DNA of 26,024 bases, taken from the IMG/VR virus record IMGVR_UViG_3300018046_000029, positions 1-26,024 of that record. One strand, given 5' to 3'. Source of the DNA: a virus. Below are positions 10,154 through 25,835 of the stretch, piece after piece; position 1 is the first letter of the stretch, and each line of letters starts with the position of its first letter. The notes beneath the pieces are model-generated. The model was given only the letters and a program-made list of their open reading frames with translations, searched no databases and was not told the origin of the DNA. The position numbers and the translations under genes are program-made.

Positions 10154-10173
10154 TTGGTAAGTAAACTTAACAA
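10154..10173. promoter_or_regulatory. Palindromic operator-like site, copy 1 (HNH promoter / upstream of nozzle gene)
   Basis: TTGGTAAGTAAACTTAACAA is an inverted repeat of 9-base arms with one mismatch around a central AA. It covers the predicted HNH transcription start. It is also 60 bases upstream of the minus-strand nozzle gene, so one bound protein could affect both directions. Confidence 0.6.
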
Positions 10174-10186
10174 GGGGTGATACTAT

Positions 10187-10771
10187 TTGGGACGCTTTCA
10201 ACCTGGTCGTACAGTTCCTCAAGAGGAACGAGACAGAAACCGTTTGGTGATGAAGAGAAACATAGAATTGGGCCTTATTAAACCTGGAACCTATTGGACG
10301 CCAGAATCTATTGCCAAGCATAGAGAAACGATGAAAAACAAAAACATTGGTAAACTATATAACACAGCATCAGGGTATGTTTTCATTAAAACAGCAGAAG
10401 GTTTTGAAAGATACCATAGATATTTGATGGAACAACAGTTAGGACGTAAGTTACTGCCTGGAGAAATAGTGCATCACATTGATGGGAAAAAATCAAATAA
10501 CGATATTTCTAATCTTGTGTTAGTGTCTGGAGGCAACTCGGAACATCTCAGGCTCCATCGCCATACTCCCCTTCCATTTGCAAAAACAGGACAATGGTCA
10601 GTTCATCACGACTGTTGCGTTATTTGCGGCAAAACCGATTCTCCACATAATGGGCGAGGTGTCTGCGGCCGGTGCTATTTGCGTCTGTGGAAAACTGAGC
10701 CTGAACGCCTCCAGCAATTAAAAGCAAGTCACCCAAACACAAGCCCTAAACAAGTCAACAACAGGAAATAA
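10187..10771 (+). CDS. HNH endonuclease with C-terminal zinc motif (194 aa)
   Basis: TTG start at 10187; AAGGGGTGA (10172-10180) lies 6 bases before it. The N-terminal third, with TPESIAKHRETMKNKN, resembles DNA-binding modules of phage homing endonucleases. Residues 91-124 form an HNH_3-type core: PGEIVHHIDGKKSNNDISNLVLV with His96-His97, Asn105 and Asn109, then His120/His124. A zinc motif follows (C144-x2-C147 and C160-x2-C163). The gene is on the strand opposite its neighbours, ends one base from the stop of the convergent 56-aa gene, and is AT-rich (a hand count of line 10321 gives about 32% GC). It is probably a free-standing mobile endonuclease; a packaging helper role is less likely because it lies far from terL. 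Confidence 0.9.
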   Translation: MGRFQPGRTVPQEERDRNRLVMKRNIELGLIKPGTYWTPESIAKHRETMKNKNIGKLYNTASGYVFIKTAEGFERYHRYLMEQQLGRKLLPGEIVHHIDGKKSNNDISNLVLVSGGNSEHLRLHRHTPLPFAKTGQWSVHHDCCVICGKTDSPHNGRGVCGRCYLRLWKTEPERLQQLKASHPNTSPKQVNNRK

Positions 10772-10772
10772 G

Positions 10773-10943
10773 CTATCGCCTCTTCTTCTTGCTCTTGGCC
10801 TTGGCTTTCTTGACATGCACAGGGAGATTCTTCTCTCCCTTGCTTGCCTTGTCCCACTTGGCAACTTCCTTCTTGCTCACCGGGCTGTTGGGGCTGTGAA
10901 AGAGGCCCCTTTGGGCGACGCTTAAATAAGGTATTGCACTCAC
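10773..10943 (-). CDS. Small very basic protein (56 aa)
   Basis: GTG 10941-10943 overlaps the TGA of the upstream 56-aa gene as GTGA, so translation is probably coupled. The protein is SAIPYLSVAQRGLFHSPNSP, then VSKKEVAKWDKASKGEKNLP, then VHVKKAKAKSKKKRR. The Lys/Arg tail suggests nucleic-acid contact or binding to the particle interior. It converges on the HNH gene with one base between stop codons. No family is recognised. The ATG-less start is supported only by the overlap and the uninterrupted frame. Confidence 0.6.
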   Translation of the reverse strand: MSAIPYLSVAQRGLFHSPNSPVSKKEVAKWDKASKGEKNLPVHVKKAKAKSKKKRR

Positions 10944-11110
10944 CACCCAGTTTTCATCTTCATTTTCGGGGTGACAGTTGCCAGCGTACTCTTGGCCTTC
11001 ATCACGCTGTCCGGCACACCCGGATACCTGGCATCGCTCGATGTTGCCTTTTCCATCTTGCCGGTCTTGGGGTTGACCGGTGGCTGTTTGTTGAATCCAA
11101 CGTTAGGCAT
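10940..11110 (-). CDS. Small basic protein ending in GW (56 aa)
   Basis: ATG 11108-11110 lies one base after the TAA of the 45-aa gene; AAGGAAAGAAGG upstream inside that gene serves as ribosome site. The protein begins MPNVGFNKQPPVNPKTGK and ends TPKMKMKTGW, with a charged, probably helical middle (SDARYPGVPDSVMKAKS). It belongs to a run of three short basic genes between adaptor and nozzle. Function is unknown. The tight spacing and the coding-like Lys/Pro usage argue for a real gene. Confidence 0.6.
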   Translation of the reverse strand: MPNVGFNKQPPVNPKTGKMEKATSSDARYPGVPDSVMKAKSTLATVTPKMKMKTGW

Positions 11111-11111
11111 T

Positions 11112-11249
11112 TTACAACCTTCTTTCCTTGGTGTTCTTGCCCCAACTGGCCGGGGCAGACTGAATCGCTATCTGCGGCTTGCCTGCCTTTACCGATCCCG
11201 GTGTGGGGGTATGGGCTTTGGTTTTGACGGGCGGATCCATTTTAGCCAT
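11112..11249 (-). CDS. Small basic Pro/Lys-rich protein (45 aa)
   Basis: ATG 11247-11249 with GAGAGGAG about 11 bases before it. The sequence begins MAKMDPPVKTKAHTPTPGSV and ends WGKNTKERRL. It follows the adaptor-like gene by 17 bases and nearly touches the next small gene. Disordered and basic; function unknown. A competing ATG (11260-11262 region) gives only 23 codons and sits directly on the ribosome site. Confidence 0.55.
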   Translation of the reverse strand: MAKMDPPVKTKAHTPTPGSVKAGKPQIAIQSAPASWGKNTKERRL

Positions 11250-11266
11250 TCAGAAGGCATCTCCTC

Positions 11267-12418
11267 TCACCTGAAACTGCTGACCTTTATCTGCCTATTA
11301 AATCTTTTTTGCATCTGATCTAATGCAAGTTGAACTTTTCCCCGAAACTCGCTATAACGCTGAGAAGTGTCTTTATCGTTAGGAAAGTCCACGCTGGCGA
11401 AACGATACGCCAAATAGTACGGAAGTGCATTGGCGATCAGGGGATGGCATGGCAACGGATCTGTCCCTGACATATTGCTCACTATCGGTGGCAACTGGTA
11501 ATATCGCACCGTGTAAAGAGAACCGCCGTAGTCAAACCACATAAAGGCACTGTCACATTCGTAGTCGTAGAAGTCGTCACCGTTGCTGTCATAAACCGCA
11601 TATACCCGAAGGAAATCGAGCGGGACAGCGTAGGCCACATTATACTGCGCCGTGGGAATCGTCCAGTTGTTGAACAGGCAGGCGTCAGCCATAAGCTCTA
11701 CCTGCATACAGTCGTTGATCCAGGGGATCACGTCGGAGTAGCTGAGTGTCTTTCTGATCAGGTTGTTGGAGCAGTAATTTGCGACATCGGCCACAGTGTT
11801 AAAATAGCCTGCTGTCTGGTAGGTGAACTGGTCAGCAGAACTTGTGGTGCTGGTGCCATACGGAGACACGACGGTTACGTCCACCTGGCCGGCTGTTAAT
11901 GCCGGAGGTGCGACCGCGTATATCTGCGTCCCGGTCTGATTGATCGTGAAGCCCGATCCCCACGGATATCCGGTGCCGCCCGGTACGGTATTCGCAGCCT
12001 GCGAACTGCCCGAGGTCGATCCGGAAAAGACCGGCACGGTGCCGAAGTAGACGACAGTGGTGTTCTGGAAGTTGTACCCGTTAATGGTCACGTTCTGGCC
12101 GCCTGCGGTGATACCCCTGGCCGGGGATACGCTGGTTACTACTGGCACGCCTGAATAGGTGAACTGATCCCCGGAATTGATCGAACTGGACCCGCCGGAC
12201 GTGGTCACGATCACGTTGTAAACACCGGGCGTCGGGTTGGGCGGTGTGATGCAGACTATCGAAGTCGCGCTGATCACGTTGATACCGGCAGCCGGCAACC
12301 CGCCAATATTAACGGTACTGGCGCCCACAACAAAGCCGGTGCCGGTGATAGTGATTGGCGTGCCTCCCATGAGAGGACCGCTATTCGGACTAACGGCAGA
12401 TACGGTCGGCGCAGCCAT
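11267..12418 (-). CDS. Head-tail adaptor-like protein with two N-terminal TIG/IPT domains (383 aa)
   Basis: The start overlaps the preceding stop as TAATG (12416-12420), so translation is coupled to the 133-aa gene. Residues 3-89 and 91-201 are two Ig-like TIG/IPT domains, each opening PxVxxVSPxxGxxxGGxxxxIxGxxF and ending in GDQFTYS or ADQFTYQ. Residues about 205-383 are helical, with DVIPWINDCMQVELMADAC, VPLDFLRVYAVYD, LIANALPYYLAYRFAS and a final long helix, the style of short-tail adaptor/gatekeeper proteins (P22 gp4 or T7 gp11 type). The Ig-like domains would project from the neck and may bind surface sugars. Adaptor identity is inferred from pattern and from its place before the nozzle gene; the TIG call is strong. 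Confidence 0.78.
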   Translation of the reverse strand: MAAPTVSAVSPNSGPLMGGTPITITGTGFVVGASTVNIGGLPAAGINVISATSIVCITPPNPTPGVYNVIVTTSGGSSSINSGDQFTYSGVPVVTSVSPARGITAGGQNVTINGYNFQNTTVVYFGTVPVFSGSTSGSSQAANTVPGGTGYPWGSGFTINQTGTQIYAVAPPALTAGQVDVTVVSPYGTSTTSSADQFTYQTAGYFNTVADVANYCSNNLIRKTLSYSDVIPWINDCMQVELMADACLFNNWTIPTAQYNVAYAVPLDFLRVYAVYDSNGDDFYDYECDSAFMWFDYGGSLYTVRYYQLPPIVSNMSGTDPLPCHPLIANALPYYLAYRFASVDFPNDKDTSQRYSEFRGKVQLALDQMQKRFNRQIKVSSFR

Positions 12419-12819
12419 TACAGAACCTCCCAGGCGGTCTTTGCAAACTCCTTCTGATGCTCTCTTGCCAGGTTGTCATTGCGGGTGTCGAAAGCCCTGG
12501 CGAGCATAGCCTCATGCCTTTGGTTGAACTTATCGATCTCGGCAAATGCCTCTGCGCTGCGCTCAACGGAATTTTCCCTGGCCTTGTCCAGAACGCGGGT
12601 GTCGAGATCCTTCCATGGCACTATCCAGGCGTAGGTATGGGGATAGTGGGCAGTAGAATGACACTCCCAGTTTGGCCCTAGATCGTTTCTCGCTATAAAA
12701 AGCGTTTCGTCGATCTCCCTGATCCGGTTGCAGATGTCGTGAACATCATCAAATATTGGGTGAAGCCAAGGTTTCCCTGAAAGCCGGGATAGTACTTCGT
12801 TGCGGAAAGCTGAGTCCAT
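12418..12819 (-). CDS. Unknown helical neck-region protein (133 aa)
   Basis: ATG 12817-12819 with AAGGTGG about 6 bases upstream. Mixed N-terminus (GKPWLHPIFDDVHDICNRIREIDETLF), an aromatic middle (YPHTYAWIVPWKDLD), then a long charged helix (residues about 82-130) that could form a coiled coil. It overlaps the adaptor start by one base, suggesting the two products are made together and may interact. One palindromic operator-like site lies just upstream. No family recognised. Confidence 0.7.
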   Translation of the reverse strand: MDSAFRNEVLSRLSGKPWLHPIFDDVHDICNRIREIDETLFIARNDLGPNWECHSTAHYPHTYAWIVPWKDLDTRVLDKARENSVERSAEAFAEIDKFNQRHEAMLARAFDTRNDNLAREHQKEFAKTAWEVL

Positions 12820-12831
12820 TTAGCCACCTTC

Positions 12832-12851
12832 TTGGAAAGTTTACTTAACGC
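12832..12851. promoter_or_regulatory. Palindromic operator-like site, copy 2 (upstream of 133-aa neck gene)
   Basis: TTGGAAAGTTTACTTAACGC shares the AAGT-WW-ACTT core (12837-12846) and the left TTGG arm with the other copies; the right arm is less conserved. It occupies the intergenic gap 12820-12895, 13 bases before the ATG on the minus strand. No convincing sigma70 boxes were found in this gap. Confidence 0.5.
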
Positions 12852-12895
12852 TTGGTGCAATCAGGTTCTGCTACTCTCGCCCCTGCAAGGTAATA

Positions 12896-13789
12896 CTATC
12901 CAGAACCAGCTTGCAAATTCCTAATACTTGCTAAGCGTCTCGCCGACGGCAATACTCTTGGTACATCGCCTACTGCACCAAACACGTTCAATGCCCCGCC
13001 TGTCGCTCCATTTGGTGGCTGATCATGTAGATGAAACATGGAGTACGGAACGCCAAGGCTAATACATTTATTTATAAACGCTGCTACCTGAGCGGGTGTT
13101 GGGTCAACGCCGTTATATGTCCACATCTGGCCAATCGGTGCAATCGGAAATCCAGGTGTTAGAGTGTTAATGGCCGCTACAGACTCCTGCACCCACAAGG
13201 CAATATTCGCTGGTGTTGGGGGATAGGTTCCATACGTCATCATCTTTACCCAGTATAACTGTGGCAAGACAATGTTGTAATAAGCAGCACAGTCTATATA
13301 CGTCTGAGGGTATGTTGCCCAAGGAGCAATGTTATCCACGGTTTGCGGATTTAACACCGTTACCGCTAATGGGTAGTTTACGCCCAAGGTTGTGCGTATA
13401 GCCGAGCTAAATGCTATAAAGTTGGTGTCGGGGGTCAGGTTTACCTCTACATCAATGATTATTCCATCCGCCTTATCCCCACTTGGAGTTTGATAATTTG
13501 CTACTGATACTGTCAGCGATTCGTAGGTGGAAAGGTTTGCACTTAGCAAATCTGGGCTAATTGCAGGAAAAACTGCAATACCAGCCGCGTGAGCTTTTGG
13601 AAGTAAGTCGTTTAAGAATGCCTGGCCATAAAAGCCCGACCCGATATTGGCAACACTACCAGCATAAATACAGGTACATCCTGCCGTTTTGGCAAGAGTG
13701 ACGATGGGGGTGGCGTTACTTCCATATGCGAACTGCCAATCCCAGTAGCTATCTATCCATAAGCCTTTGTTAAACATAGCCATATTCAT
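12896..13789 (-). CDS. TIM-barrel glycoside hydrolase-like virion protein (297 aa)
   Basis: ATG 13787-13789 with AAGGGAGTG upstream. Strand-helix alternation runs through the whole protein as in an eight-fold barrel: KGLWIDSYWDW (8-18), CTCIYAGSV (38-46), AHAAGIAVFPAISPDLL (66-82), KADGIIIDVEVN (106-117), PLAVTVLNPQ, YNIVLPQLYWVKM, GFPIAPIGQMWTYN, GVPYSMFHLHDQPP. The DGIIIDVE motif puts Asp108, Asp113 and Glu115 at the end of strand 4, where GH18/GH25-type and related barrel hydrolases carry their acids. Substrate unknown: peptidoglycan or surface glycan. The gene sits among head-surface and neck genes, so it may be displayed on the particle. No signal peptide. Confidence 0.7.
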   Translation of the reverse strand: MNMAMFNKGLWIDSYWDWQFAYGSNATPIVTLAKTAGCTCIYAGSVANIGSGFYGQAFLNDLLPKAHAAGIAVFPAISPDLLSANLSTYESLTVSVANYQTPSGDKADGIIIDVEVNLTPDTNFIAFSSAIRTTLGVNYPLAVTVLNPQTVDNIAPWATYPQTYIDCAAYYNIVLPQLYWVKMMTYGTYPPTPANIALWVQESVAAINTLTPGFPIAPIGQMWTYNGVDPTPAQVAAFINKCISLGVPYSMFHLHDQPPNGATGGALNVFGAVGDVPRVLPSARRLASIRNLQAGSG

Positions 13790-13801
13790 GGTGTCACTCC
13801 C

Positions 13802-14617
13802 TTAATACTTCAGCACTACATCGAAAAATGTCAGGTAACATATATCTGTCGCCACTGAGGTATATCCTTGCAAGGATATACTACTATTGTACGCTCCAAA
13901 CACACTCATAAATTGCCCGCTAGTAAGGGGCATGGGATTACCTAAAGGCCCCTGAACGATTGCTCCGTTGATCGAACCTGTTCCAATTCTGTTGGCGACG
14001 GCGGCTACAGAGGCCAATCCGGAAAAGGTGATTTCCAGACACTCAGTTAATGAAGCAGCAGCTGTTCCCACGCCATACCAGAGTTCCGTCGAGTTGGCGG
14101 TGATTGTGGCTGTCCCTGAAGAGGTGTTCCAGAAGAAGAAATACAGAGTATGCACTCCACCGTCGAGCAGATTGTTAAATACTGCGGTGGATGGAAATCC
14201 TGCTCCGTTACCTGTTGCTCCGTTTGGCACTTCATCTTTCACGAACAACTGCGCCGTAGTGCCTGTCCAACTCACATCAAAAAGCCTATGAGAAGCATCT
14301 TGAGCATCAATATAAACCCTGCAATGAAGGGTGTTGGGATTTGTGCTGGCCGTGCAGGAGAGCCGCGCGGCGATTCTCTCGAAAATAACCCTGGGATCCC
14401 CCGGCGCAGCAACTGCACTCTGATTAACAGTCATAGCGGAGGACATAGCCGTGATCGAGACGTGACCGTCCGCATTTCCCGTCCCTACCGCCTCTGCTAC
14501 CGCTGTGACGTTGTGGGCGGTTGTCAAACCTGTGATGGTTACGGTGGTGTCCAAGTAGTTCGGGTTCGGTGCCCACATGATCTGGTCAGTTCTTGTCGTG
14601 TTGTTCTTCAGCCCCAT
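13802..14617 (-). CDS. Beta-rich head or neck surface protein, unknown function (271 aa)
   Basis: ATG 14615-14617 is chosen because GAAGGTG is 5 bases upstream; an earlier in-frame ATG at 14635 would overlap the preceding gene. The stop-to-start gap is two bases, so coupling is likely. The protein has almost no predicted helix: repeated Thr/Ala/Val/Gly strands (TTVTITGLTTAHNVTAVAEAVGTG, TLHCRVYIDAQDASHRLFDVSW, HTLYFFFWNTSSGTATITANSTELWYG). This fits an Ig-like or jelly-roll decoration or fibre protein. No signature domain recognised. Confidence 0.72.
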   Translation of the reverse strand: MGLKNNTTRTDQIMWAPNPNYLDTTVTITGLTTAHNVTAVAEAVGTGNADGHVSITAMSSAMTVNQSAVAAPGDPRVIFERIAARLSCTASTNPNTLHCRVYIDAQDASHRLFDVSWTGTTAQLFVKDEVPNGATGNGAGFPSTAVFNNLLDGGVHTLYFFFWNTSSGTATITANSTELWYGVGTAAASLTECLEITFSGLASVAAVANRIGTGSINGAIVQGPLGNPMPLTSGQFMSVFGAYNSSISLQGYTSVATDICYLTFFDVVLKY

Positions 14618-14619
14618 AA

Positions 14620-15837: not shown

Positions 15838-15861
15838 CTGATCAACTCCCTTTAGAGTAAA

Positions 15862-15883
15862 GCGGGGGAGATTAAGCCCCCGC
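15862..15883 (-). terminator. GC-rich hairpin after the 259-aa gene
   Basis: A perfect 7-bp stem, GCGGGGG with CCCCCGC, around an 8-base loop, located 6 bases after the stop of the 259-aa gene and before the ribosome site of the 405-aa gene. On the minus strand it is followed by TTTACTCT, only a weak T tract. It is more likely a partial terminator or mRNA-stabilising hairpin than a full stop. Confidence 0.55.
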
Positions 15884-15889
15884 CCGTCT

Positions 15890-16669
15890 TTATCTGTTCT
15901 GCGAGAACTGCGCGTAGTCGATGGTCATTGTGTTGGCCTGCGCTGCGGCCTTGTTGTCCAGATAGAAATACGGGGCAAGCGTGGTCAAAGGCGATTGAAT
16001 CAACTGAGTTGCCGGTAGCAGAGCCGGGGGTACTTGGATGTCGTTGATCCAGACGTTCATGCCTGCGGTGGTAGCGCCGGAAGCCTGAGGCAGAATCTCG
16101 ATCCTGATCTTGAAATAGGTGTTGACGGCCACGCTCGGAGCACCTGGATACCCGGTGAGGAGCGTTGCAACTTCACCAGCGCCGTTGTTATTGGTGGAGA
16201 GGTAGAGGCCGGTGGTGGACAGGGCGGTGTCGTATTTGACATATGCCCAGTTGCTTGCAGAAGCGTAAAGTCCCATCCTTGCGGTCAGGTTGGCAGTGAC
16301 GTTGTTCACCTGTAGCAGCGCCTCGAATGACGGGTTCTTGACCATACTGAAAAGCTGCTGGGTGAAGGTCAGGGTCGAAGTGCTAGACGATGTGGCAGTA
16401 GTCGCCAGAACCATCGTGCCGTTAGGGTTGGCGGTGACTGTCTGGGTGCCGTTAGTGCCAGCGCCGGTCCAATGCGCCTTGGCGATCACGGTAGAAGCCA
16501 GAGCAGCAGGAGCTTCGAGGAAATCCTCGATTAGCCACATGCCATACGGCTTGATCTCGGAGAGTTCTATTGTGTCTATTGCCCGGAGCCATATACCGGG
16601 GCCTCCCGCCGATCTGTTGTACGCAGCATCTTCGGGTCGTAGTAAGGCGCTATCAATGCCTCTCGGCAT
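15890..16669 (-). CDS. Beta-sandwich head surface/decoration protein (259 aa)
   Basis: ATG 16667-16669 with a near-perfect TAAGGAGGT ribosome site. It is the first gene after the capsid gene. The N-terminus (MPRGIDSALLRPEDAAYNRS) is followed by a beta sandwich of LamG/jelly-roll style: PSFEALLQVNNVTANLTARMGLYASASNWAYVKYD, TYFKIRIEILPQ, GMNVWINDIQV, LAPYFYLDNKAAAQANTMTIDYAQFSQ. Proteins with this pattern appear as capsid-associated or fibre subunits. High expression is suggested by the strong ribosome site and the shared transcript with the capsid gene. The exact role is inference. Confidence 0.72.
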   Translation of the reverse strand: MPRGIDSALLRPEDAAYNRSAGGPGIWLRAIDTIELSEIKPYGMWLIEDFLEAPAALASTVIAKAHWTGAGTNGTQTVTANPNGTMVLATTATSSSTSTLTFTQQLFSMVKNPSFEALLQVNNVTANLTARMGLYASASNWAYVKYDTALSTTGLYLSTNNNGAGEVATLLTGYPGAPSVAVNTYFKIRIEILPQASGATTAGMNVWINDIQVPPALLPATQLIQSPLTTLAPYFYLDNKAAAQANTMTIDYAQFSQNR

Positions 16670-16739: not shown

Positions 16740-17999
16740 TTAGTGCTCTACAATGCCCTGTAGCCAAACCTGAGCACGCGGTTTTTGGCAACCTAAGTCC
16801 GCATATTTTACCATCGTCGCCTCATACGCGGGTACGTTCGCAACCCTGCTCAGGATCGCCCCGTCCTCGTCCATCCAGGTCCAGTCCTCAAGCTCATAGA
16901 CTTTGAAGTCGTCGGTGTCCAACAGGAACATGGAGCCGGTCGGGCAATACTGGTCAGCCGTGATCGGGAGGGACTTCTCTCCGCCCTGGTATTCGAGAGC
17001 CTTCCAGCCACCCTTCAGTTCCAAGGTGTTGATCTGCCTCTTCTGGGATTGCAGCATGTACTGGTAGGCACGCCGGCCGCCGAAGCTGGTCACGATGAAC
17101 TTGATATGGCCGGCAGCGAACATGCGGGAGTTGTCGATGCCAGCCTGAATCACAACCTCGGAAATTTCTCCGTTGACCGCTGTGGGCACCTGAGCGTTGA
17201 ACCAGTAGTTGCTTGACCGGTTGATGTTATAGAGGGTGGTGCCGTTGTTGAAGATAGCGCCCAGACCAGTGATCTCGCCGTTCAGGGTAGTGCCGGTAGC
17301 CACGTTCTGCACAACGATGTAGTCAGTGCTGACCATACCAATCGAGGCGCAGGTGACGTTCCATGTAACGGTTGATGTAGCGTTGTTCACCGCGGTGATC
17401 TGGATCGGGGTGCCGGGTGTGTTGCGCTGAGTAGTCGGGTAGGCGCCTGCCGCCAACACATCGCAGAGCATACCTTCAGCCAGGACGTTGATCCCACCGA
17501 TTGAGTAGTTGGTGAACGGAGTGTACTGGTTGACGGTCGTGGTCGAACCGGAAGCGACGTTGACTACAGCGAGGACACCAGAGCCATCCCAGAATACTGA
17601 CCGGGCGACGTTTTCTTTCGCGTCGTCCTGGCAATCCTGAAGTTCCTGCTTGAACATATTGGCGAAGGCGCCGACATTCGAGCGGGAAGATCGGAGCAAC
17701 TTGTCGGAAAGCTGAATCCGAGCGTACATGTTCTTGGTCTGCCAATTGGCCTGCGCGGTCTGACGGCTGTTGGTGACGGGCAGGGACGAAATATCGGAGC
17801 CGGCCCCGTAGCCGCCGTTACGACCGTACCGGAGGGCCATGGTGATCGAGCTACCGACGACGCCTTCCTTGCCGCGCTCGAACTGTGCGAACACGACGCT
17901 TGCCCCGATGTTTAGCTGATACCGGAGCGAGGGGAGGAAAAAAGTCTTGAGGGCGTTGGCTGCGCTAGTTAAACCGGTTACGTTAGGGTTGGTCGGCAT
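16740..17999 (-). CDS. Major capsid protein (419 aa)
   Basis: ATG 17997-17999 with AAGGAG about 11 bases upstream. The sequence has the features of a P22/N4-type HK97-fold coat protein: LNIGASVVFAQFERGKEGVVGSSITMALRYGRNGGYG near the N-terminus, then RQTAQANWQTKNMYARIQLSDKLLRSS and FANMFKQELQDCQDDAKENVARSVFWDG (the spine-helix region). A beta insertion follows (about 150-260, VNVASGSTTTVNQYT through NNGTTLYNIN). The C-terminal domain has AGIDNSRMFAAGHIKFIVTSFGGRRAYQYM and a final KPRAQVWLQG. It follows portal and scaffold, precedes decoration proteins, and is framed by a palindromic site upstream and a tetraloop hairpin downstream. No cleavage site was identified. Confidence 0.9.
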   Translation of the reverse strand: MPTNPNVTGLTSAANALKTFFLPSLRYQLNIGASVVFAQFERGKEGVVGSSITMALRYGRNGGYGAGSDISSLPVTNSRQTAQANWQTKNMYARIQLSDKLLRSSRSNVGAFANMFKQELQDCQDDAKENVARSVFWDGSGVLAVVNVASGSTTTVNQYTPFTNYSIGGINVLAEGMLCDVLAAGAYPTTQRNTPGTPIQITAVNNATSTVTWNVTCASIGMVSTDYIVVQNVATGTTLNGEITGLGAIFNNGTTLYNINRSSNYWFNAQVPTAVNGEISEVVIQAGIDNSRMFAAGHIKFIVTSFGGRRAYQYMLQSQKRQINTLELKGGWKALEYQGGEKSLPITADQYCPTGSMFLLDTDDFKVYELEDWTWMDEDGAILSRVANVPAYEATMVKYADLGCQKPRAQVWLQGIVEH

Positions 18000-18025: not shown

Positions 18026-18045
18026 TTGTTAAGTTTACTTGCCAT
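18026..18045. promoter_or_regulatory. Palindromic operator-like site, copy 3 (between scaffold and capsid genes)
   Basis: TTGTTAAGTTTACTTGCCAT matches the consensus with core AAGTTTACTT at 18031-18040. It lies between the scaffold stop (18057) and the capsid start (17999), 26 bases before the capsid ATG. A poor TTGTCC-17-TAACAA pair overlaps it on the minus strand, so a capsid-specific promoter here is possible but weakly supported. Confidence 0.55.
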
Positions 18046-19136: not shown

Positions 19137-21404
19137 TCATTGCGCCGCCGCTTGTTGCGGGGCTGCTGCTATTTGTGGCGGTCCTCCTGGCGAGGGTGCC
19201 GCTTGTGGCTGTCCCGGTGGTGTTGGCGCACCAGGTTGTGCTTGTGCTTGGCCGTGCATCTTCTGGAGATGCATCAGGGTGTGCATTTTGAATATCTGAT
19301 CCAGCGTGCCACCCGCCGCCTGATTCATCTGATCGTATTCATCTGTCAGGCGGTAGTTATTGTGGTGAGTGACATGGAGAACATCATCGTCCACGTCGGA
19401 GACCTGAACTTGCTGCCCCTGATCCATGACGCGGTTCTCCTTTTCCGCCCGGCTGATCTGCCGGGAGTCCACGGCATCGCTTAATTCCCAATGCCCAAAC
19501 TGCATCAGATCAAGTACCTTGGCGCGCCCGTCCTTGGTCAACTTGCCGGTGTCTGGATCATTGAACAGACCACTCTGCATCATGTCAAACACCATCGCCC
19601 GGCGCTGGGCAGGAGTCTCTGCAAGCATGGCCGATGTCTCAATGATTACGTCGTCGCTTCGTACATCCCGGTTGTCCCACTGCATCATCTCAAGCTCCAT
19701 GTCAGGGCCAATGGTTCTAACCATTCTCTTCTGGGTGGCGAACTGGCGATAGAGCCGGATCACCTGTTTACTTATGTCCACCAGTCCCATCTCATAGTTG
19801 CCTACAGTATGGGAAAGGCGGGTATCGTCCTGCTCTATAGCGATAGCGAGAGCTACACCGGACTTGATCCCAGGAGGCGCTTCGCTGTTCCTGGCGATCT
19901 CACTGACGCCGGATATATAAGTAAACTCATTCAGCAGAGCACCCTCTTCCTCGCGGAACTCCGGGGGGAGGCCAGGGGTCTCCATGAAGTGCGGATCGGC
20001 AAAGCCTTTCTTCTTGATCCAGATCGCCCCGGGAGAACCGGCGTTATTGGCTGCCCAATCGGCGTCGACACTGTTCTCCTCGATAATTACCTGGCCGATA
20101 GCCACCCGGTTAAGGTGCTCGGCTTTACGGTTTCTCACGGCATTGTAGCGGCGCTGTACCGGAACAATCCGCTCGATAATAGAGCGTCCCCAGAAGCAAC
20201 CTGGGCGCCGTATGCAATCGAACTTGGTGATGCCGATGTCTGCTTTGTCATCCGGCCCCACTCGGTAGGGCAGCGCCCCGACGTGCAAGAGCTTGTGGCC
20301 GGCAACGACGATCAGGCGTCCGTCAGGATAGGCCGAAGTTGGCTTCTCGTATTCCTCTTTCAGGACGGCATAGCCATCTATCTTGCTGACTGTCTGGTTG
20401 AAGTTATAGAACCCATAGCCCAGACCGGCCAGGCCAAGGGTAGTAGTCTGAATCTTGTAGGAGTCTACCGGCTCGGAGTCAACCTTGACCCCGTACATCT
20501 CATAGATTTCCTCCACCGGGTAGGCTCTGGCGTGCATGATTCTCCGGCAATCATCTATTGTCGGATGCCAGGGGGAATCGGGGAATATCTCATAGGGGGG
20601 GACTACCACAACGTCAATGTCGCCCTCGTATATCGGTTCGAGCGTACCGGCAACGATGCCGCCACCGTCCTGCTCGATATTGATATGTTGGCGCTCAAAC
20701 TCTTCAGGGGTGGGATCGCCGGACATGTCATCATATATTTTCTTGCCCGCATTATCCAAACTCAGGCCAGTGCCATCACCCGTATTCAGAATGTCATCTA
20801 CCTTATCGTCGTCTTTCTTCTTCTTGCGAGAGAGGCTGTCTGGGGCGGTAGCATCCTTGAACTCGCCCTTAATGGACATCATGCCGACTTTCGCTCCGAG
20901 CTTGCTATCCCAGATCGGCTTAAGAAATGCCGTGCCACAACCCTCCATCCACTGGAAGAGGGTGTTGCGGTCCTCCATAGTCAGGCGTTCATTCAGGAAA
21001 TAATCGAGCAGACGGGTTTCAACCTTGGCGCCCGAGAGATCATAGTCCTCTGACGTGGCCGGGCGTACTTTCAGGATGGGCTGCATACGTGATATGCGGG
21101 CTATGCGGGTTTCAATGATGGGGGCGCAGTGGTTGAATACTTCCCGTTCTTGCCACCAGTAAAGCTTCGGTATCTCAAATAAGTCCATGATGGCAGCATT
21201 TATGTCCATGTACTGGTTGCCGTCAATGAAGGCCATGTTCAGGCGCCACTGTAATTCAAATGGCCGACGTTCGTTACGCCGGCGCTCAAATTCCTGGTCA
21301 ACGTGAGAAACGAGATCGGTATCATAACCGAAGTCTGTTGGCTTCGACCTGACAGCGATTCGTGATATGCCTCTTTTTACGGCAGAGAGCATGGATTCTT
21401 TCAT
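19137..21404 (-). CDS. Portal protein, P22-like (755 aa)
   Basis: The open frame reaches GTG 21452, but that lies in the loop of a strong hairpin. GGAGG stands 4 bases before ATG 21402-21404 (MKESMLSAVKRGISR), the preferred start. Portal features include VDQEFERRRNERRPFELQWRLNMAFIDGNQYMDI, APIIETRIARISRMQPILKVRPATSEDYDLSGAKVETRLLDYFLNE, and WMEGCGTAFLKPIWDSKLG. The clip/stem region has GCFWGRSIIERIVPVQRRYNAVRNRKAEHLNR and SEIARNSEAPPGIKSGVALAIAIEQDDTRLS. A Lys/Asp low-complexity loop (SRKKKKDDDKVDD) interrupts the wing. The tail is Gln/Pro/Ala-rich. Length fits P22 gp1 (725 aa). It forms the dodecameric DNA entry ring for TerL. Confidence 0.9.
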   Translation of the reverse strand: MKESMLSAVKRGISRIAVRSKPTDFGYDTDLVSHVDQEFERRRNERRPFELQWRLNMAFIDGNQYMDINAAIMDLFEIPKLYWWQEREVFNHCAPIIETRIARISRMQPILKVRPATSEDYDLSGAKVETRLLDYFLNERLTMEDRNTLFQWMEGCGTAFLKPIWDSKLGAKVGMMSIKGEFKDATAPDSLSRKKKKDDDKVDDILNTGDGTGLSLDNAGKKIYDDMSGDPTPEEFERQHINIEQDGGGIVAGTLEPIYEGDIDVVVVPPYEIFPDSPWHPTIDDCRRIMHARAYPVEEIYEMYGVKVDSEPVDSYKIQTTTLGLAGLGYGFYNFNQTVSKIDGYAVLKEEYEKPTSAYPDGRLIVVAGHKLLHVGALPYRVGPDDKADIGITKFDCIRRPGCFWGRSIIERIVPVQRRYNAVRNRKAEHLNRVAIGQVIIEENSVDADWAANNAGSPGAIWIKKKGFADPHFMETPGLPPEFREEEGALLNEFTYISGVSEIARNSEAPPGIKSGVALAIAIEQDDTRLSHTVGNYEMGLVDISKQVIRLYRQFATQKRMVRTIGPDMELEMMQWDNRDVRSDDVIIETSAMLAETPAQRRAMVFDMMQSGLFNDPDTGKLTKDGRAKVLDLMQFGHWELSDAVDSRQISRAEKENRVMDQGQQVQVSDVDDDVLHVTHHNNYRLTDEYDQMNQAAGGTLDQIFKMHTLMHLQKMHGQAQAQPGAPTPPGQPQAAPSPGGPPQIAAAPQQAAAQ

Positions 21405-21421
21405 GGTGCCTCCGCTGGCCC

Positions 21422-21480
21422 AATTAAAAACGGGAAGTTCGCCAAGTACCACTTATCAAGGTGTTGGCGAAACTTCCCGT
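21422..21480 (-). terminator. Strong hairpin plus T tract just before the portal gene
   Basis: On the minus strand the arms ACGGGAAGTTTCGCCAA and TTGGCGAACTTCCCGT pair over 16 bp with a single bulged T around an 18-base loop, and are followed by TTTTTAATT. This is a textbook intrinsic terminator or attenuator, placed only 18 bases before the portal ATG and after the 66-aa gene. Transcription reading from terL would meet it before reaching portal. Confidence 0.8.
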
Positions 21481-21506
21481 CGGTTGTTCATCGTCCGGGT
21501 TTTATG

Positions 21507-21515
21507 AAGTTACTT
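21507..21515. promoter_or_regulatory. Degenerate operator-like site upstream of the portal leader
   Basis: AAGTTACTT keeps both AAGT/ACTT half-sites of the dispersed palindrome but with a 1-base instead of 2-base centre and poor outer arms. It lies just downstream of a possible minus-strand promoter, the same relative place as the site in the HNH promoter. It may be chance. Confidence 0.25.
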
Positions 21516-21526
21516 ACAGCACAAGC

Positions 21527-21553
21527 ATATTACGGCAAATCAGATATTGTCAA
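21527..21553 (-). promoter_or_regulatory. Possible promoter for the portal transcript or leader RNA
   Basis: On the minus strand, a perfect -35 TTGACA (21548-21553), a short 15-base spacer and TAATAT (21527-21532). The predicted start near 21520 would yield a roughly 95-base leader ending at the hairpin 21480-21422. The short spacer lowers confidence. Confidence 0.4.
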
Positions 21554-21740
21554 GATTTATTTTTATTGGCTTCACGCTTTCGGTCTTGATGATCCGAACT
21601 ATGCTCCTGCCCTGGATCAGAAGCTCTACCCTTCCCCATTCAAGAGAGCGCAGAACATCGAGCGCCTGCCTCTCTTCGTCGCTGACGCCCAATAATATTC
21701 TCTTGTCTGGGTCAATGAAGTCATGGGGCAAAGGTATCAC
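21540..21740 (-). CDS. DUF2292 (YezD-like) small protein (66 aa)
   Basis: GTG 21738-21740 starts one base after the TGA of the previous gene; AGG inside that gene's end serves as ribosome site. The segment ALDVLRSLEWGRVELLIQGR followed by SIVRIIKTESVKP (about 26-58) matches the compact pattern of DUF2292/YezD proteins (helix, GxVxxxxxxGxIVxIxxTE). That family is common in Firmicutes and of unclear function; the Bacillus member lies in a sulfur-related operon. The phage copy carries an extra acidic N-terminus (HDFIDPDKRILLGVSDEER). Role in the phage unknown. Last gene before the portal leader hairpin. Confidence 0.65.
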   Translation of the reverse strand: MIPLPHDFIDPDKRILLGVSDEERQALDVLRSLEWGRVELLIQGRSIVRIIKTESVKPIKINLDNI

Positions 21741-21741
21741 C

Positions 21742-22008
21742 TCACCTGCGGCCTGGAATGAATAGAGGGCTTCTCTCTTGCTGCTCTGGCTTAGGTTGAA
21801 AGTCTACGGTAGCCATCGGCATCAGGCCGTCATAGACGCAATCATCGACATCCAGGGTGGTCGGGTTGCCATCCTTGTCGTAGGCGAAGAGTCTGTTTAC
21901 CCAATATATCTGTGCCCCTGTCTTTATGGAATGGCTCAACATCCCCATTACAAGAAACTGCTCACCAGTCTCTTTTACTTTGACCAGATGCGGGAACATC
22001 TCACTCAT
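21742..22008 (-). CDS. Unknown small protein (88 aa)
   Basis: ATG 22006-22008 overlaps the end of the 76-aa membrane gene by 8 bases; GGGAGGAG lies inside that gene just upstream. The protein begins MSEMFPHLVKVKETGEQFLV and has a YWVNRLFAYDKDGNP turn and a D-rich LDVDDCVYDGLMPMATVDF motif, suggesting a small beta barrel with a charged C-terminus. No family recognised. Its place in the terL-portal interval is typical for accessory packaging or host-interaction genes. Confidence 0.6.
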   Translation of the reverse strand: MSEMFPHLVKVKETGEQFLVMGMLSHSIKTGAQIYWVNRLFAYDKDGNPTTLDVDDCVYDGLMPMATVDFQPKPEQQERSPLFIPGRR

Positions 22009-22231
22009 CTCCTCCCATGCTCATGCTTCTTCTGATACTTTCACTGATTGGATTTCTGCCCTTTGGCGGGGGACCGGCCTGGTTGCTGATGTAATCCGTC
22101 AGAGTCTCGGCCTTGATCAGGCGGTAGAGGTCTTTACGCTCCTTGGCATGCTGCATTTCGAGAGCGTAGAACAGTCCGCCGAACAGGGCTAGGAAGAGGA
22201 CGGCGCAGATGGCGTTTACCATATCGGTCAT
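22001..22231 (-). CDS. Single-pass membrane protein (76 aa)
   Basis: ATG 22229-22231 overlaps the preceding stop as ATGA. Residues 5-23 (VNAICAVLFLALFGGLFYA) form one hydrophobic helix. The soluble remainder, AKERKDLYRLIKAETLTDYI followed by PPPKGRNPISESIRRS, is charged and resembles short membrane proteins often found next to packaging genes. No lipobox, no second helix and no lysis motif, so calling it a holin or spanin is not justified. Membrane location is confident; function unknown. Confidence 0.65.
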   Translation of the reverse strand: MTDMVNAICAVLFLALFGGLFYALEMQHAKERKDLYRLIKAETLTDYISNQAGPPPKGRNPISESIRRSMSMGGDE

Positions 22232-22413
22232 ACTGCCCCACGCTCCTTCATGAGATCATGAAACGCTTCACACCTGGCAACATTTTCATTGACAGAAATA
22301 CCTGCGTTAATCTTTTTGGCTCTATCCCACGCGTCTAAAAGCACAGGCATTGGAGCATCCTTATACATCTTTCTGAACTTTTCCACCTGTTTCTGATAAA
22401 CAGTGCCATCCAT
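22228..22413 (-). CDS. Unknown small helical protein (61 aa)
   Basis: The frame is open to 22596 but that part overlaps the 200-aa gene out of frame. The ATG at 22411-22413 is one base after that gene's TAG, with AGGG upstream, and is the sensible start. The protein is MDGTVYQKQVEKFRKMYKDA, then PMPVLLDAWDRAKKINAG, then ISVNENVARCEAFHDLMKERGAV. It looks like two or three amphipathic helices. Translation is coupled to the downstream membrane protein by ATGA. No family recognised. Confidence 0.6.
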   Translation of the reverse strand: MDGTVYQKQVEKFRKMYKDAPMPVLLDAWDRAKKINAGISVNENVARCEAFHDLMKERGAV

Positions 22414-22414
22414 A

Positions 22415-23017
22415 CTAATACCCTGGCCCTTCTGCATCTGCATCGGGCACATGCTCCACCTTGTTTCCGAAAACATCGCCCTCGCCGGCCATCCCCACAT
22501 TGCGGTACTTATCTCCATATGCTTCTTTGAAGTCGGCGGGAGACTGTCGATCTCCAGTCTTAAAGAATATACCGCTTTCCTCGGTGATGGGCGCACCCAC
22601 TACCACATGGCAATGCTGCTCATGGATGCTACGTGCTGCCGGGTTCTTCAACAGCTTGCCGCACTTGTAGCATGGATATGTTTTCTTCTCTGGGGGAGCC
22701 GCCGTCGCCCTGGCTTCTTCCTCGATCAAGGCGGCTAGATCGGACTCTGCCTTTTGGTCAACGTCGGCATACTCGATAAGCTTATCTCTCCCCATCTTCC
22801 TGGCAATAGGGCCATACTCAGGATCATCAAAGATTGTTTCGATCAGGGCTACCATGTGGTTGTGGCAAATATAATGATTGGTGAACCCATTGGATGGCGT
22901 GGTGTTAAAGGCAACGGCTGCGGGCATGTTCGAACCGTGCTGGGTACCTATCTCGCATGAACCGTACTCGCACGATTGCCCCATGACGCTTCGGTGAATC
23001 TTGATGGGATTGAACAT
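22415..23017 (-). CDS. Zinc-finger-containing protein, unknown function (200 aa)
   Basis: ATG 23015-23017 with AGGAGGAGG about 6 bases upstream. The N-terminal 60 residues carry spaced Cys/His (C16, C21, C51, H54: CEYGSCEIG ... YICHNHM), a possible metal site. The middle is acidic and helical (KAESDLAALIEEEARAT). Residues 114-137 form a C2H2-like finger: YPCYKCGKLLKNPAARSIHEQH, with C116, C119, H132 and H137 or C136. The tail is hydrophilic and Gly/Asp-rich. DNA- or protein-binding is inferred. It follows a run of small basic genes and has the strongest ribosome site in this block, so it may be well expressed. Confidence 0.65.
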   Translation of the reverse strand: MFNPIKIHRSVMGQSCEYGSCEIGTQHGSNMPAAVAFNTTPSNGFTNHYICHNHMVALIETIFDDPEYGPIARKMGRDKLIEYADVDQKAESDLAALIEEEARATAAPPEKKTYPCYKCGKLLKNPAARSIHEQHCHVVVGAPITEESGIFFKTGDRQSPADFKEAYGDKYRNVGMAGEGDVFGNKVEHVPDADAEGPGY

Positions 23018-23044
23018 CTTGTTCCTCCTCCTAAAACAGATTGC

Positions 23045-23155
23045 CTAGAGCTTGAAGTTGGGAGCCTTCGGCACTCGTGGTGTCTTAGGCTTTGGCACCT
23101 TCGGGCTTTTCACCCTTGACTTAGGGACGGTAGGCTTCTTGATTCTGGTCGTCAT
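23045..23155 (-). CDS. Tiny Lys/Pro-rich basic protein (36 aa)
   Basis: ATG 23153-23155 begins one base after the TAG of the 55-aa gene. The protein is MTTRIKKPTVPKSRVKSPKV followed by PKPKTPRVPKAPNFKL, almost wholly a K-P/V repeat. Such disordered cationic peptides can bind DNA or acidic surfaces. The start has only modest ribosome-site support (GGGGTGG inside the upstream gene). Read directly from the minus strand; function unknown. Confidence 0.5.
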   Translation of the reverse strand: MTTRIKKPTVPKSRVKSPKVPKPKTPRVPKAPNFKL

Positions 23156-23156
23156 T

Positions 23157-23324
23157 CTACCACCCCGGAATCAGAGCAGACTTCTTGGGGTTTCTGCTCG
23201 CAGGAGTAGATCCATGCGTGCTAGTGCCCTTCTTCGGGTGCTTGACCATCCCGATTGCTCCGGGGCTGGTGATGTTGGTCGGGCCGGGGATCTTGCCGGC
23301 TATTTTCGTTTTCTTCTTTGCCAC
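23157..23324 (-). CDS. Small basic protein (55 aa)
   Basis: GTG 23322-23324 with AGAGAGGAG about 10 bases upstream. The product opens (as translated) with VAKKKTKIAGKIPGPTNITS and ends NPKKSALIPGW; it is basic and probably disordered. The next gene starts one base after its stop. It resembles the basic GW-ended protein at 10940-11110 in size, composition and final GW, but alignment by eye is too weak to claim homology. Function unknown. Confidence 0.5.
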   Translation of the reverse strand: MAKKKTKIAGKIPGPTNITSPGAIGMVKHPKKGTSTHGSTPASRNPKKSALIPGW

Positions 23325-23375
23325 AGCGATGATGCTCCTCTCTGCTAGTTTTATAGGATGCCTTGCGGCTAATCC

Positions 23376-23726
23376 TCACTTTATGCTAAACCTCTCTCGA
23401 TCCCATTCTCTGCGCTGTATCCATTCAGGATCGTTACGAGTTTTTATCCTGTGCCACAATGCCATACACAACCATATTTGATAGGGCATCTTTGACTCTT
23501 GATAGCACCAGTCTATAATCTGCTTTTCGAGCAACCAAGAGAGAAATTCGGTCTCTTTCCAACTGAGCCAGTGGCAAAACCGATAAGGATATTGCAGCAA
23601 AGAATACGGGAATTGCTTATGGGTGACAAGGAGCGCATGTCTATTGGGAACAAATCTGAGCACCGTGTAGTTTCTCTCGACGTACTCCAAATCGCCGGTA
23701 TTGCAGCAGTTTATTTCCCAGATCAT
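23376..23726 (-). CDS. Unknown Trp/aromatic-rich protein (116 aa)
   Basis: ATG 23724-23726 is two bases after the stop of the zinc-ribbon gene; TTGGGGGCG acts as a weak ribosome site. The protein has an unusually high Trp/Tyr/Cys content: MIWEINCCNTGD, KQFPYSLLQYPYRFCHWLSWKETEFLSWLLEKQIIDWCYQ, YQIWLCMALWHRIKTRNDPEWIQRREW. Helical and probably soluble; no transmembrane run. Cys pairs (C7-C8, C66 area, C89, C102) do not form a clear zinc pattern. More AT-rich than terL. No family recognised; about 50 bases without a gene follow it. Confidence 0.6.
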   Translation of the reverse strand: MIWEINCCNTGDLEYVERNYTVLRFVPNRHALLVTHKQFPYSLLQYPYRFCHWLSWKETEFLSWLLEKQIIDWCYQESKMPYQIWLCMALWHRIKTRNDPEWIQRREWDRERFSIK

Positions 23727-23728
23727 CT

Positions 23729-24001
23729 CTACGCCCCCAATACCCTTCTGACATCTTCCCTCGCAACGAGAAACTTCTTATATGCCTCTTGCTGGGCTTC
23801 AGCCTGCGCCTTCTTTTGAATCATAACCCGATATTCAGGTAAGGTATCGTGCAGGAGTTTGCCTCTGATTTCGACATGGCTTTTGATAGTGTTGAAACAG
23901 GATGGACACATGATGACTTTCAGGTCGGCCATGATGATGCCATCAGTGAGGCGGTTGGACTTGCGGTTGCAGAGAGAACAACGGTTGTGAAGGACTCTCA
24001 T
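23729..24001 (-). CDS. Zinc-ribbon protein (90 aa)
   Basis: The ATG overlaps the preceding stop as ATGA (23998-24001). Residues 8-11 and 32-35 form a CxxC ... CxxC pair (RCSLCNRKSN, MCPSCFNTIKSH), a zinc ribbon of rubredoxin-knuckle type. Residues 45-90 are a charged helix (EYRVMIQKKAQAEAQQEAYKKFLVAREDVRRVL). The four Cys recall the truncated HNH-like zinc cores of phages, but no HNH histidines follow, so nuclease activity is not claimed. Binding to DNA, RNA or terminase is inference. Confidence 0.65.
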   Translation of the reverse strand: MRVLHNRCSLCNRKSNRLTDGIIMADLKVIMCPSCFNTIKSHVEIRGKLLHDTLPEYRVMIQKKAQAEAQQEAYKKFLVAREDVRRVLGA

Positions 24002-24246
24002 TTACTCACCCTTTTCTTAGGCATACCACCTATTCTAATAGCTTTGTTATATGGTTTTACAATGATAGCTGATTTATCTACAAGGAATTGTCCACCCTTG
24101 TCATCCAGTCCGCCTTTGACTAATTTCTTTGTGATTTTAGGGTCTGTAGTTTGGATTCTGGCAAAATCCTCGCCCGGTAAAAAGTAAATATTCAATTCGT
24201 TGTGCTTGTAGCGAAGGCTTTGTAAATATGTCATTACTTCTGTCAT
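23998..24246 (-). CDS. Unknown small protein following terL (82 aa)
   Basis: ATG 24244-24246 with GGGGGGAG about 8 bases upstream, 14 bases after the terminase stop. The sequence begins MTEVMTYLQSLRYKHNELNIYFLPGEDFARIQ and continues TTDPKITKKLVKGGLDDKGGQFLVDKSAIIVKPYNKAIRIGG, i.e. a helix then alternating short strands. Basic C-terminus (PKKRVSK). No family recognised. AT-rich relative to terL. Confidence 0.6.
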   Translation of the reverse strand: MTEVMTYLQSLRYKHNELNIYFLPGEDFARIQTTDPKITKKLVKGGLDDKGGQFLVDKSAIIVKPYNKAIRIGGMPKKRVSK

Positions 24247-24260
24247 AGTCTCTCTCCCCC

Positions 24261-25697
24261 CTAACTATTCAACGCCCTGGCGTGCATATCATCATACTTG
24301 CCTACCCTGGCCAGCTTCTCCTTGTAAAGTTGCAACCGGGTCTTCTTTTCCTCCGGCGCCTTGGATTCCGAGGCATGGTAGGACACAAGCCCCATCCCAC
24401 CGCAATCGTAGCCGTGGTTGTCTGAACTCGGAGCGTCGCTTACCTTGTCGCTGTCCATCTCGTCCTCTTGCAGTTGCGGGATGGAACTGATCAGATAGCG
24501 GCAGGTAGAGAATATCTTGAGCCGCGGCCCCACTTCAGGATCGTTTCGCAAGTACTCATGCCATGTGGCTTTCCTGATCTTCCGGTCGGTATCCCCCCTG
24601 ACGAAACCAGAGAGGCCGCCGTCCTGGTAATAATCGATCAGCGTCTTGCCCTCGGTATCCCTATGGTGCTGGCTCCACGCGTCATGTCCGGCAACAATGA
24701 CATCGTGCTTCTCGACAACCTCTTCATCGCACCGGGAGACCTCATCATATCGGGTGAATGTGGATAGCTGTACCACCCGCCTGGCCTGGTCGGAGTATCC
24801 CACCCTTTCCTCATGTTTGTTGCGGGTGAACTCCCGGTAGATGTATACCTGACCATCCTCGTCAACGGTGAACCAGAGCCAACAGAAGGGATCGGCCATG
24901 CCGTTATCGACGGACATCCATTTTCGCCAGTGATCCGGTATAACAAATGGCCTGACAACATGGATTGCCGGGTCAAATTCCTCGAAAGCCTGCCCCTCGT
25001 AGGAGTCCCAATCGCCATAGAGAAGGGCTCTCTTCTTGGCGGGTGACAGGTTTTCCAGGCGCTTGACATAAGTGGGGTCGTTGTCCATAAGGGTCTTGTT
25101 GTCGTAGACAGTAGCCGGGATGTAGGCGATAGAGTTGCCTGTTTGCTTATCCCGATACATGCGCTCCCCTTTATTGGTAGGGGTGACGTAGCGCTTCTTA
25201 GCCCACTTATGCCCCTTCTGGCCGGGGTTGCTAGTAGACCTGAACCGGGGCGGGTACCCCCTCGGTGAACGCAGGCAGGAGAGAAGGATCTGGATCTCTT
25301 CCTGGACATGCTTGGTAAGCTCATCGACACCGATGTAGTCTATCGAGCGACCATCGTACTTGCTGGCGTCCTCGACACAATCACAGAACCGGAAATACAC
25401 CCTGGAACCATTAATCAGAGTGGCAATATGCTTGCTCTCATGGTACTTGTAAAGTTGCTGCGGAATCTTGGACTTCCACTCTGAAATCAAGTTGGATTCA
25501 AGCTCATCAAAAGTCTCCCGGAAGAGGTAGCATATGGCCCCTTTATACTGCATGGCGTAGGAGAAACAATCCATGACCAGGGCCGCCGATTTCCCGCCCC
25601 CTTTTGCTCCGCCATAAAGAATCTCGTCGGCGTCGCATTCATGGAACCGGACCTGCTTCGGGTTTGTGTAGGGGTCGTATGCCAGGGTTAGTTCCAT
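24261..25697 (-). CDS. terL: Terminase large subunit (478 aa)
   Basis: ATPase-nuclease motor that packages DNA through the portal. ATG 25695-25697 with AAAAAGG about 7 bases upstream. ATPase part: a Q-motif-like NPKQVRFHE (12-20), Walker A GGAKGGGKS (29-37), Walker B YIGVDE (121-126, acid pair D125/E126), coupling motif STSNPG (154-159). Linker LLYGDWDSYEGQAFEEFDP (225-243). Nuclease part: MSVDNGMADP with Asp264, a second acid in IVAGHDAWS (about 340-348), and a late GMGLVSYH region. Length is normal for the family. The small terminase subunit is not evident in the window and may lie just beyond its high end. Confidence 0.95.
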   Translation of the reverse strand: MELTLAYDPYTNPKQVRFHECDADEILYGGAKGGGKSAALVMDCFSYAMQYKGAICYLFRETFDELESNLISEWKSKIPQQLYKYHESKHIATLINGSRVYFRFCDCVEDASKYDGRSIDYIGVDELTKHVQEEIQILLSCLRSPRGYPPRFRSTSNPGQKGHKWAKKRYVTPTNKGERMYRDKQTGNSIAYIPATVYDNKTLMDNDPTYVKRLENLSPAKKRALLYGDWDSYEGQAFEEFDPAIHVVRPFVIPDHWRKWMSVDNGMADPFCWLWFTVDEDGQVYIYREFTRNKHEERVGYSDQARRVVQLSTFTRYDEVSRCDEEVVEKHDVIVAGHDAWSQHHRDTEGKTLIDYYQDGGLSGFVRGDTDRKIRKATWHEYLRNDPEVGPRLKIFSTCRYLISSIPQLQEDEMDSDKVSDAPSSDNHGYDCGGMGLVSYHASESKAPEEKKTRLQLYKEKLARVGKYDDMHARALNS

Positions 25698-25700
25698 GAG

Positions 25701-25835
25701 CTACCTTTTTCCCCTGGTAAGTAAACTTGCCAACATGCCCAGAAACTCTTTGAAATCGGCGTGCTTGGGTGGCCTACGGTTACCGTTACATTTGGCGAAG
25801 AAAGCTTCTTTGGCGGATTGGCGGGCGGTTTTCAT
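25701..25835 (-). CDS. Small basic protein upstream of terL (44 aa)
   Basis: ATG 25833-25835 overlaps the preceding stop as ATGA; GAGAGGAG lies about 9 bases upstream. The product is MKTARQSAKEAFFAKCNGNR followed by RPPKHADFKEFLGMLASLLTRGKR: basic with an amphipathic C-terminal helix. The stop is 3 bases before the terL ATG. Its last third overlaps the palindromic site at 25714-25733. Too short for a normal small terminase subunit. Read directly from the minus strand; function unknown. Confidence 0.6.
   Translation of the reverse strand: MKTARQSAKEAFFAKCNGNRRPPKHADFKEFLGMLASLLTRGKR
25714..25733. promoter_or_regulatory. Palindromic operator-like site, copy 4 (upstream of terL)
   Basis: CTGGTAAGTAAACTTGCCAA has the core AAGTAAACTT (25719-25728) with outer GG/CC arms, ending 17 bases before the terL ATG. 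Here the site lies inside the end of the 44-aa gene, so its conservation is not simply due to being intergenic. No clear sigma70 boxes were found around it. Confidence 0.55.

Follow-up and report, generated by a model that had tools for sequence, protein, structure and literature searches.

Repressors of the Lambda/P22 CI type bind palindromic operators as helix-turn-helix (HTH) dimers, with tandem copies on a promoter, and operators of the classical CI kind occur only in the switch region. In cluster A mycobacteriophages such as L5, the repressor binds as a monomer to operators and stoperators that are asymmetric 13-mers, and their orientation follows that of transcription (PMC9283540, PMC6550527). 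Phage P1 has 22 dispersed sites for its repressor, C1, in one temperate phage genome (PMC8546580); Bacillus phage SPbeta, a temperate phage of Firmicutes, has dispersed SPBRE sites for one master repressor, MrpR (PMC10516654). Here we describe a 20-bp palindrome that recurs in the virus record IMGVR_UViG_3300018046_000029, whose full 26,024 bases we call the window. From the sequences of the window and its relatives, we consider it likely that these palindromes serve as operators for a dimeric repressor encoded by the phage itself, most probably the immunity repressor of a temperate Peptococcaceae podovirus.

Two further systems bear on how such sites might act. The SAS (start-associated sequence)/ESAS repeats of cluster K mycobacteriophages lie just upstream of start codons, some of them with inverted repeats; the 13-bp SAS includes the ribosome-binding region and has a proposed role in translation initiation (PMC3203893). 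The controller protein C.Kpn2I has two modes of action: it blocks a promoter, and at an intragenic site it is a roadblock to elongation (PMC6237814).

A conserved set of palindromic sites

A preliminary description of this DNA, made from its letters alone, reported four imperfect palindromes, and all four are present at the positions it gave: TTGGTAAGTAAACTTAACAA, TTGGAAAGTTTACTTAACGC, TTGTTAAGTTTACTTGCCAT and CTGGTAAGTAAACTTGCCAA (Table 1). Exact matches to AAGTNNACTT occur in the window at these four 20-mers and nowhere else. The four sites avoid called genes in a window whose non-coding share is 6.8%, and the next minus-strand start codon lies 59, 12, 26 and 16 nt away, respectively. A 20-bp position weight matrix (PWM) scores them at 24.3–30.5; none of 200 dinucleotide shuffles gave a score of 23, and their best scores averaged 8.4. 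To avoid circularity, a second matrix was made only from the non-window sites of other genomes—with it the same four sites rank first (23.7–29.5), a site at 5718-5737 comes fifth (19.9), and the next match scores 10.2. Sites in relatives are also recovered with a matrix made from nothing but the four window sites.

The signal is the full 20-bp site, since the short core with one mismatch allowed occurs at chance level in the window. The site consensus is TTGGTAAGTAWACTTACCAA, with a half-site of approximately TGKYAAGT; the GxxAAGT bases are nearly invariant in both arms, positions 4 and 5 vary independently between the arms, and the AA/TT centre is found in both orientations.

Close relatives of the window are IMG/VR records 3300037196_000046 (L010), 3300050010_000077 (L011 and L013), and 3300037076_000264 and _000190 (L012 and L014, probably one genome), together with a phage on contigs C69 and C143 (loci L032, L034 and L033) of the 3.6-Mb Peptococcaceae metagenome-assembled genome (MAG) nzgw226. 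The capsid site is kept in all five capsid loci (window, L010, L011, L012 and the MAG phage) between diverged intergenic flanks, and L012 also keeps the site of the 133-aa gene. Chance palindromes or a mobile short repeat might account for the chance-level count of the one-mismatch core, but the shuffles, the independent matrix, the orthologous conservation and the promoter geometry described below contradict such an origin, and its probability is negligible. We regard it as nearly certain that the sites form a real, conserved operator set.

The motif is restricted to this phage group. All nine places in the MAG within two mismatches of GGTAAGTAWACTTACC, a pattern chosen after the phage sites had been seen, lie on the two phage contigs, which hold 1.3% of its bases. 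Among 2.9 million viral contigs scanned, no other phage had a clustered set of sites, and such a set is absent from 20 genomes searched around the MAG. Because the sites are private to the phage in the MAG and in the viral-collection scans, the regulator is most likely phage-encoded. The earlier statement that the sites match no named set holds as far as checked.

Elsewhere, GGTAAGTAWACTTACC occurs in 49 viral contigs and tandem half-sites in 5; all were set aside as isolated or coding matches, bar L151 (IMGVR_UViG_3300030376_007544), whose different, 23-bp-period arrays mark another system. This unrelated 128-kb viral contig carries palindromes of the ATGTTAGGTATGCTTAACAT type with a period of ~23 bp at 6540-6700 and 11830-11970, in gaps between small genes. 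L015, a relative with a 45%-identical terL (large terminase subunit), has neither this site nor, by count, another repeated palindrome.

Sites on sigma-70 promoters

Near-consensus sigma-70 promoters preceding genes on the phage contigs overlap a site (two sites in the window). The recognisable promoters with sites belong to terS, the HNH gene, the exported gene and two further genes on the minus strand. Most of these promoters score 10.5–11 of 12.5 against the sigma-70 consensus, and a score of at least 10.5 is found in 1.5% of random 200-bp segments; the remaining high-scoring promoter matches in the window are inside or antisense to genes. In three phages the terS promoter (TTGAC[A/T]-N17-TANCAT) has its spacer and -10 hexamer taken up by a site, which is identically spaced in all three and centred at about -16.5; a weaker tandem copy follows exactly 29 bp farther upstream. 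The -35 hexamer of three further promoters (window 5731, L013:475 and L032:5597) starts at site position 14; at the HNH endonuclease promoter of the window and at the second L032 copy (5544) the site covers the transcription start. Judging from this coverage of the -35, of the spacer and -10, or of the start site of near-consensus promoters, the protein that binds the sites is very probably a repressor rather than an activator.

A late-activator regulon, in which a phage regulator would bind the palindrome to turn on structural modules, was among the possibilities raised in the preliminary description. Sites do precede capsid, terL and other late genes, and the three copies with a -35 hexamer inside them have their centres near -38.5, not far from the binding position of some activators. 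However, the site-bearing promoters already match the sigma-70 consensus, with near-consensus -35 hexamers often covered by the site, and copies that occupy the spacer, the -10 or the start site, or that lie on cargo promoters, are more readily explained by blocking; we therefore consider activation improbable. The other suggestion, operator- or stoperator-like sites for a dimeric DNA-binding protein, is supported by a site set that is conserved, private to the phage group and placed on the promoters of relatives.

The promoter copies also bear on whether the element works as DNA or as RNA. Several copies lie directly 5' of a ribosome-binding site, as would be expected of mRNA leader hairpins or start-associated sequences controlling translation; yet a copy that covers a -35 or lies in a promoter spacer is not part of the transcript made from that promoter. 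Watson-Crick pairing of positions 4 and 17 occurs in 8 of 24 sites and that of positions 5 and 16 in 11 of 24, most sites fold no better than shuffles, and an Rfam search gave no match. With arms that vary independently, mostly no stable fold and copies outside the transcript, the sites point to DNA, and a role in translation is very improbable. The earlier rejection of an RNA hairpin was right in its outcome, the grounds being lost arm pairing, poor folding and copies upstream of the transcription start.

Two promoter-like sequences stand apart from the sites above. On C143, beside the integrase gene, a promoter with a site at 13019 (L033:13006-13130) is followed by no open reading frame (ORF) and then by a terminator-like GC hairpin; this is possibly a small RNA or att region. 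In the window, TTGACA-N18-TATGCT at 21553-21524 (minus strand) is flanked by the portal gene and the gene at 21742-22008; the GTAAGTAACTTCA that follows it may be a variant of the site whose centre is a single base.

Copies inside operons

The sites of capsid, the 133-aa gene and terL lie just 5' of a ribosome-binding site, as do those at L033:10765 (a 75-aa membrane-protein-like gene) and L034:7920 (a transglycosylase-like gene), and further weak copies occur between terS and terL. The replication and integrase operons on the contigs are without sites (best score ~6). In L010 and L011 a strong copy (23.6) sits within the first codons of the 133-aa gene, downstream of the start codon. The intra-operon position and this coding-sequence copy make an elongation block a better fit than a promoter operator; on sequence grounds, we give a roadblock at the intra-operon copies roughly even chances.

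Alternatively, each intra-operon copy could be the operator of its own weak promoter, with no elongation roadblock, and some of these sites do contain -10-like words (TAAACT). The best promoter scores near most of them are 7–8.5, which is unremarkable here—of random 200-bp segments, 37% attain 8.5 and 63% attain 8—and the hexamers vary between relatives; the L010/L011 copy, past its start codon, also speaks against an own promoter. We consider this alternative unlikely.

Combining both kinds of copies, a repressor could silence the phage at several levels. In a lysogen it would block RNA polymerase at the promoter copies, and the tandem copy 29 bp upstream would allow cooperative binding at the terS promoter. 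Bound intra-operon copies would, in the fashion of stoperators, keep polymerase from reading on into genes such as capsid and terL, and cargo genes would be silenced via operators on their own promoters.

Probable lysogeny and the predicted repressor

A homologue of the window gene 2-1720 is split between the two MAG contigs: C69 ends and C143 begins inside it. Because both break inside the same gene homologue, the two contigs are parts of a single phage or prophage. C143 further bears genes for an amidase and for a tyrosine integrase, besides an excisionase-like gene, and since the integrase and the excisionase-like gene share a contig with late genes of the same phage, lysogeny is supported. 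A query with the integrase found no relative in viral contigs.

The repressor may come from the XRE (HTH_3) family. Paired similar sites lie directly upstream of 3 of the 25 HTH_3 genes in the host MAG (scores of 15.2–17.6, partner at least 11); in a control, 1 of 550 segments reached at least 13. Short XRE regulators of the host thus seem to recognise a similar code. This is a correlation only; it makes an XRE-type phage repressor likely, and we consider an immunity repressor of this family fairly likely. The MAG HTH_3 loci have no phage-type operator set. The three host XRE genes with paired palindromes are on contigs C25, C128 and C162 of G001 (L076, L067 and L059), and their palindromes are probably autoregulatory sites. 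The HTH_3 gene on C128, with its two similar sites, was tried as the phage repressor and rejected as a host gene; contig-end overlaps, followed as a route to the repressor, led only to the contig C10 with pilus-like genes.

Several findings weigh against operators of an immunity repressor. The terL site is found in two of four phages (window and L013) and is absent from L014 and L032, and the site of the 133-aa gene has moved in L010 and L011 and is missing in the MAG phage (L032); conservation upstream of orthologues, which the preliminary description proposed to check, holds for capsid and is partial for these two. No repressor gene turned up: none of the contigs carries the immunity region, and in the MAG nothing matched the S24 type. 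The end of C143 overlaps the small contig C10, so C143 may reach host DNA and the integrase could be a neighbouring host gene. Lastly, what the intra-operon copies mark could be promoters that are weak or not of the sigma-70 kind.

Genes next to the sites

Table 1. Palindromic sites, promoters and adjoining genes in the window (a point in the strand column marks the sites).
Feature	Coordinates	Strand	Remarks
Palindromic site 1	10154..10173	.	exact sequence; PWM 30.5; TATAAT -10 ends 2 bp before
Palindromic site 2	12832..12851	.	exact sequence and PWM; 12 nt 5' of minus-strand 133-aa gene
Palindromic site 3	18026..18045	.	exact sequence; 26 nt 5' of major capsid gene
Palindromic site 4	25714..25733	.	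exact sequence and PWM; 16 nt 5' of terL
Fifth, weaker site	5718..5737	.	PWM 19.2; 19.9 with independent matrix
Major capsid protein gene	16740..17999	-	phrog_14242, E=1.6e-55
Terminase large subunit gene (terL)	24261..25697	-	phrog_979, E=6.7e-47
133-aa gene	12418..12819	-	no PHROG match
HNH endonuclease gene	10187..10771	+	PHROG HNH families, best 3.6e-15; TTG start
Predicted sigma-70 promoter of HNH gene, TTGTAA-N17-TATAAT	10123..10151	+	
Exported, weakly endolysin-like cargo gene	5775..6287	+	phrog_8781, E=7.6e-05; signal-peptide-like start by eye
Predicted promoter of reverse-oriented gene 5775-6287, TTGACA-N17-TAGTAT	5731..5759	+	

Besides the major capsid, portal and terL genes, the window has a recognisable phage-structural, nozzle-like gene. 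Named phages are distant, at about 34% identity or less for terL and about 28% or less for the capsid protein.

In the preliminary description each site opened a structural step, with site 10154 assigned to the nozzle gene. The site belongs instead to the plus-strand HNH endonuclease gene, which has its own promoter, with a score that 1.5% of random 200-bp segments match; the site lies 13 nt upstream of the HNH start codon, with a ribosome-binding sequence in between. L010, L011 and L012 lack the site, the promoter and the HNH gene together, and the nozzle gene is otherwise conserved. Because the promoter runs into the site and because site and HNH gene are absent together, site 10154 is best read as the HNH operator, with the nozzle gene merely its neighbour on the other strand; the HNH gene itself is a mobile cargo insert. 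The structural scheme is also unsupported for the 133-aa gene, as is the label of neck gene given to it, since a PHROG search detected no family.

The fifth site likewise concerns cargo. Its right arm includes the -35 hexamer of the plus-strand promoter at 5731, and at L034:6016 a site also precedes a similar reverse-oriented exported gene.

Three features of the relatives were seen in passing. The terL of the MAG phage (L032:8632-11199) has an apparent intein inside its Walker A motif (GGAKGGGK ... HNSCALV), unlike the window terL, which is without one. A TnpB-like ORF (IS605 type by eye) lies between the terS region and terL at L013:2455-3531. A late protein of 1826 aa (L033:68-5548) has a strawberry-notch-type helicase domain (AAA_34 and Helicase_C_4).

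Comparison with known systems

Like Lambda/P22-type CI operators, the sites are palindromic and form tandem 29-bp pairs over the three terS sigma-70 promoters, and their AAG-N4-CTT recalls P22 operators; unlike CI operators, they extend through late genes and cargo. Their distribution resembles that of cluster A stoperators, with many copies in one phage genome, some on promoters and others in the short gaps between genes (PMC9283540). Unlike the asymmetric, transcription-oriented 13-bp sites of L5, those described here are 20-bp palindromes in a non-actinobacterial podovirus, and no homologue of a repressor with HTH and stoperator domains was found among the proteins scanned. The C1 sites of P1 are asymmetric 17-mers (ATTGCTCTAATAAATTT), and the sequence here differs from them by inspection. 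SPbeta is set apart by its description: a 15-bp SPBRE motif in promoter regions, read by a recombinase-like repressor. In contrast to SAS, the ribosome-binding sequence lies outside our sites, and copies are also found on promoters. C.Kpn2I is a restriction-modification regulator rather than a phage repressor, and serves as a precedent for dual action.

The arrangement appears to work like those of L5, P1 and SPbeta. Because the palindromic form fails the defining feature of L5 and P1, we place the sites as a variant of dispersed repressor sites rather than a member of a described group. More tentatively, and at somewhat less than even chances, they may represent an independently evolved stoperator system, in which palindromes for a dimeric repressor, within the late operon of a Peptococcaceae podovirus and on cargo promoters, would silence capsid, terminase and cargo genes singly by elongation block; such a system would do without the site asymmetry and orientation that L5 needs for roadblocking. 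Dispersed repressor sites that reach structural genes are best known from mycobacteriophages, in which the site is asymmetric and its orientation matters. A palindromic version in an uncultured Firmicute podovirus, if real, would mean that genome-wide silencing by a repressor evolved more than once, and it would offer a test of whether roadblocking requires an oriented site. The site can also serve as a tag with which to bin fragments of these phages and trace their repressor.

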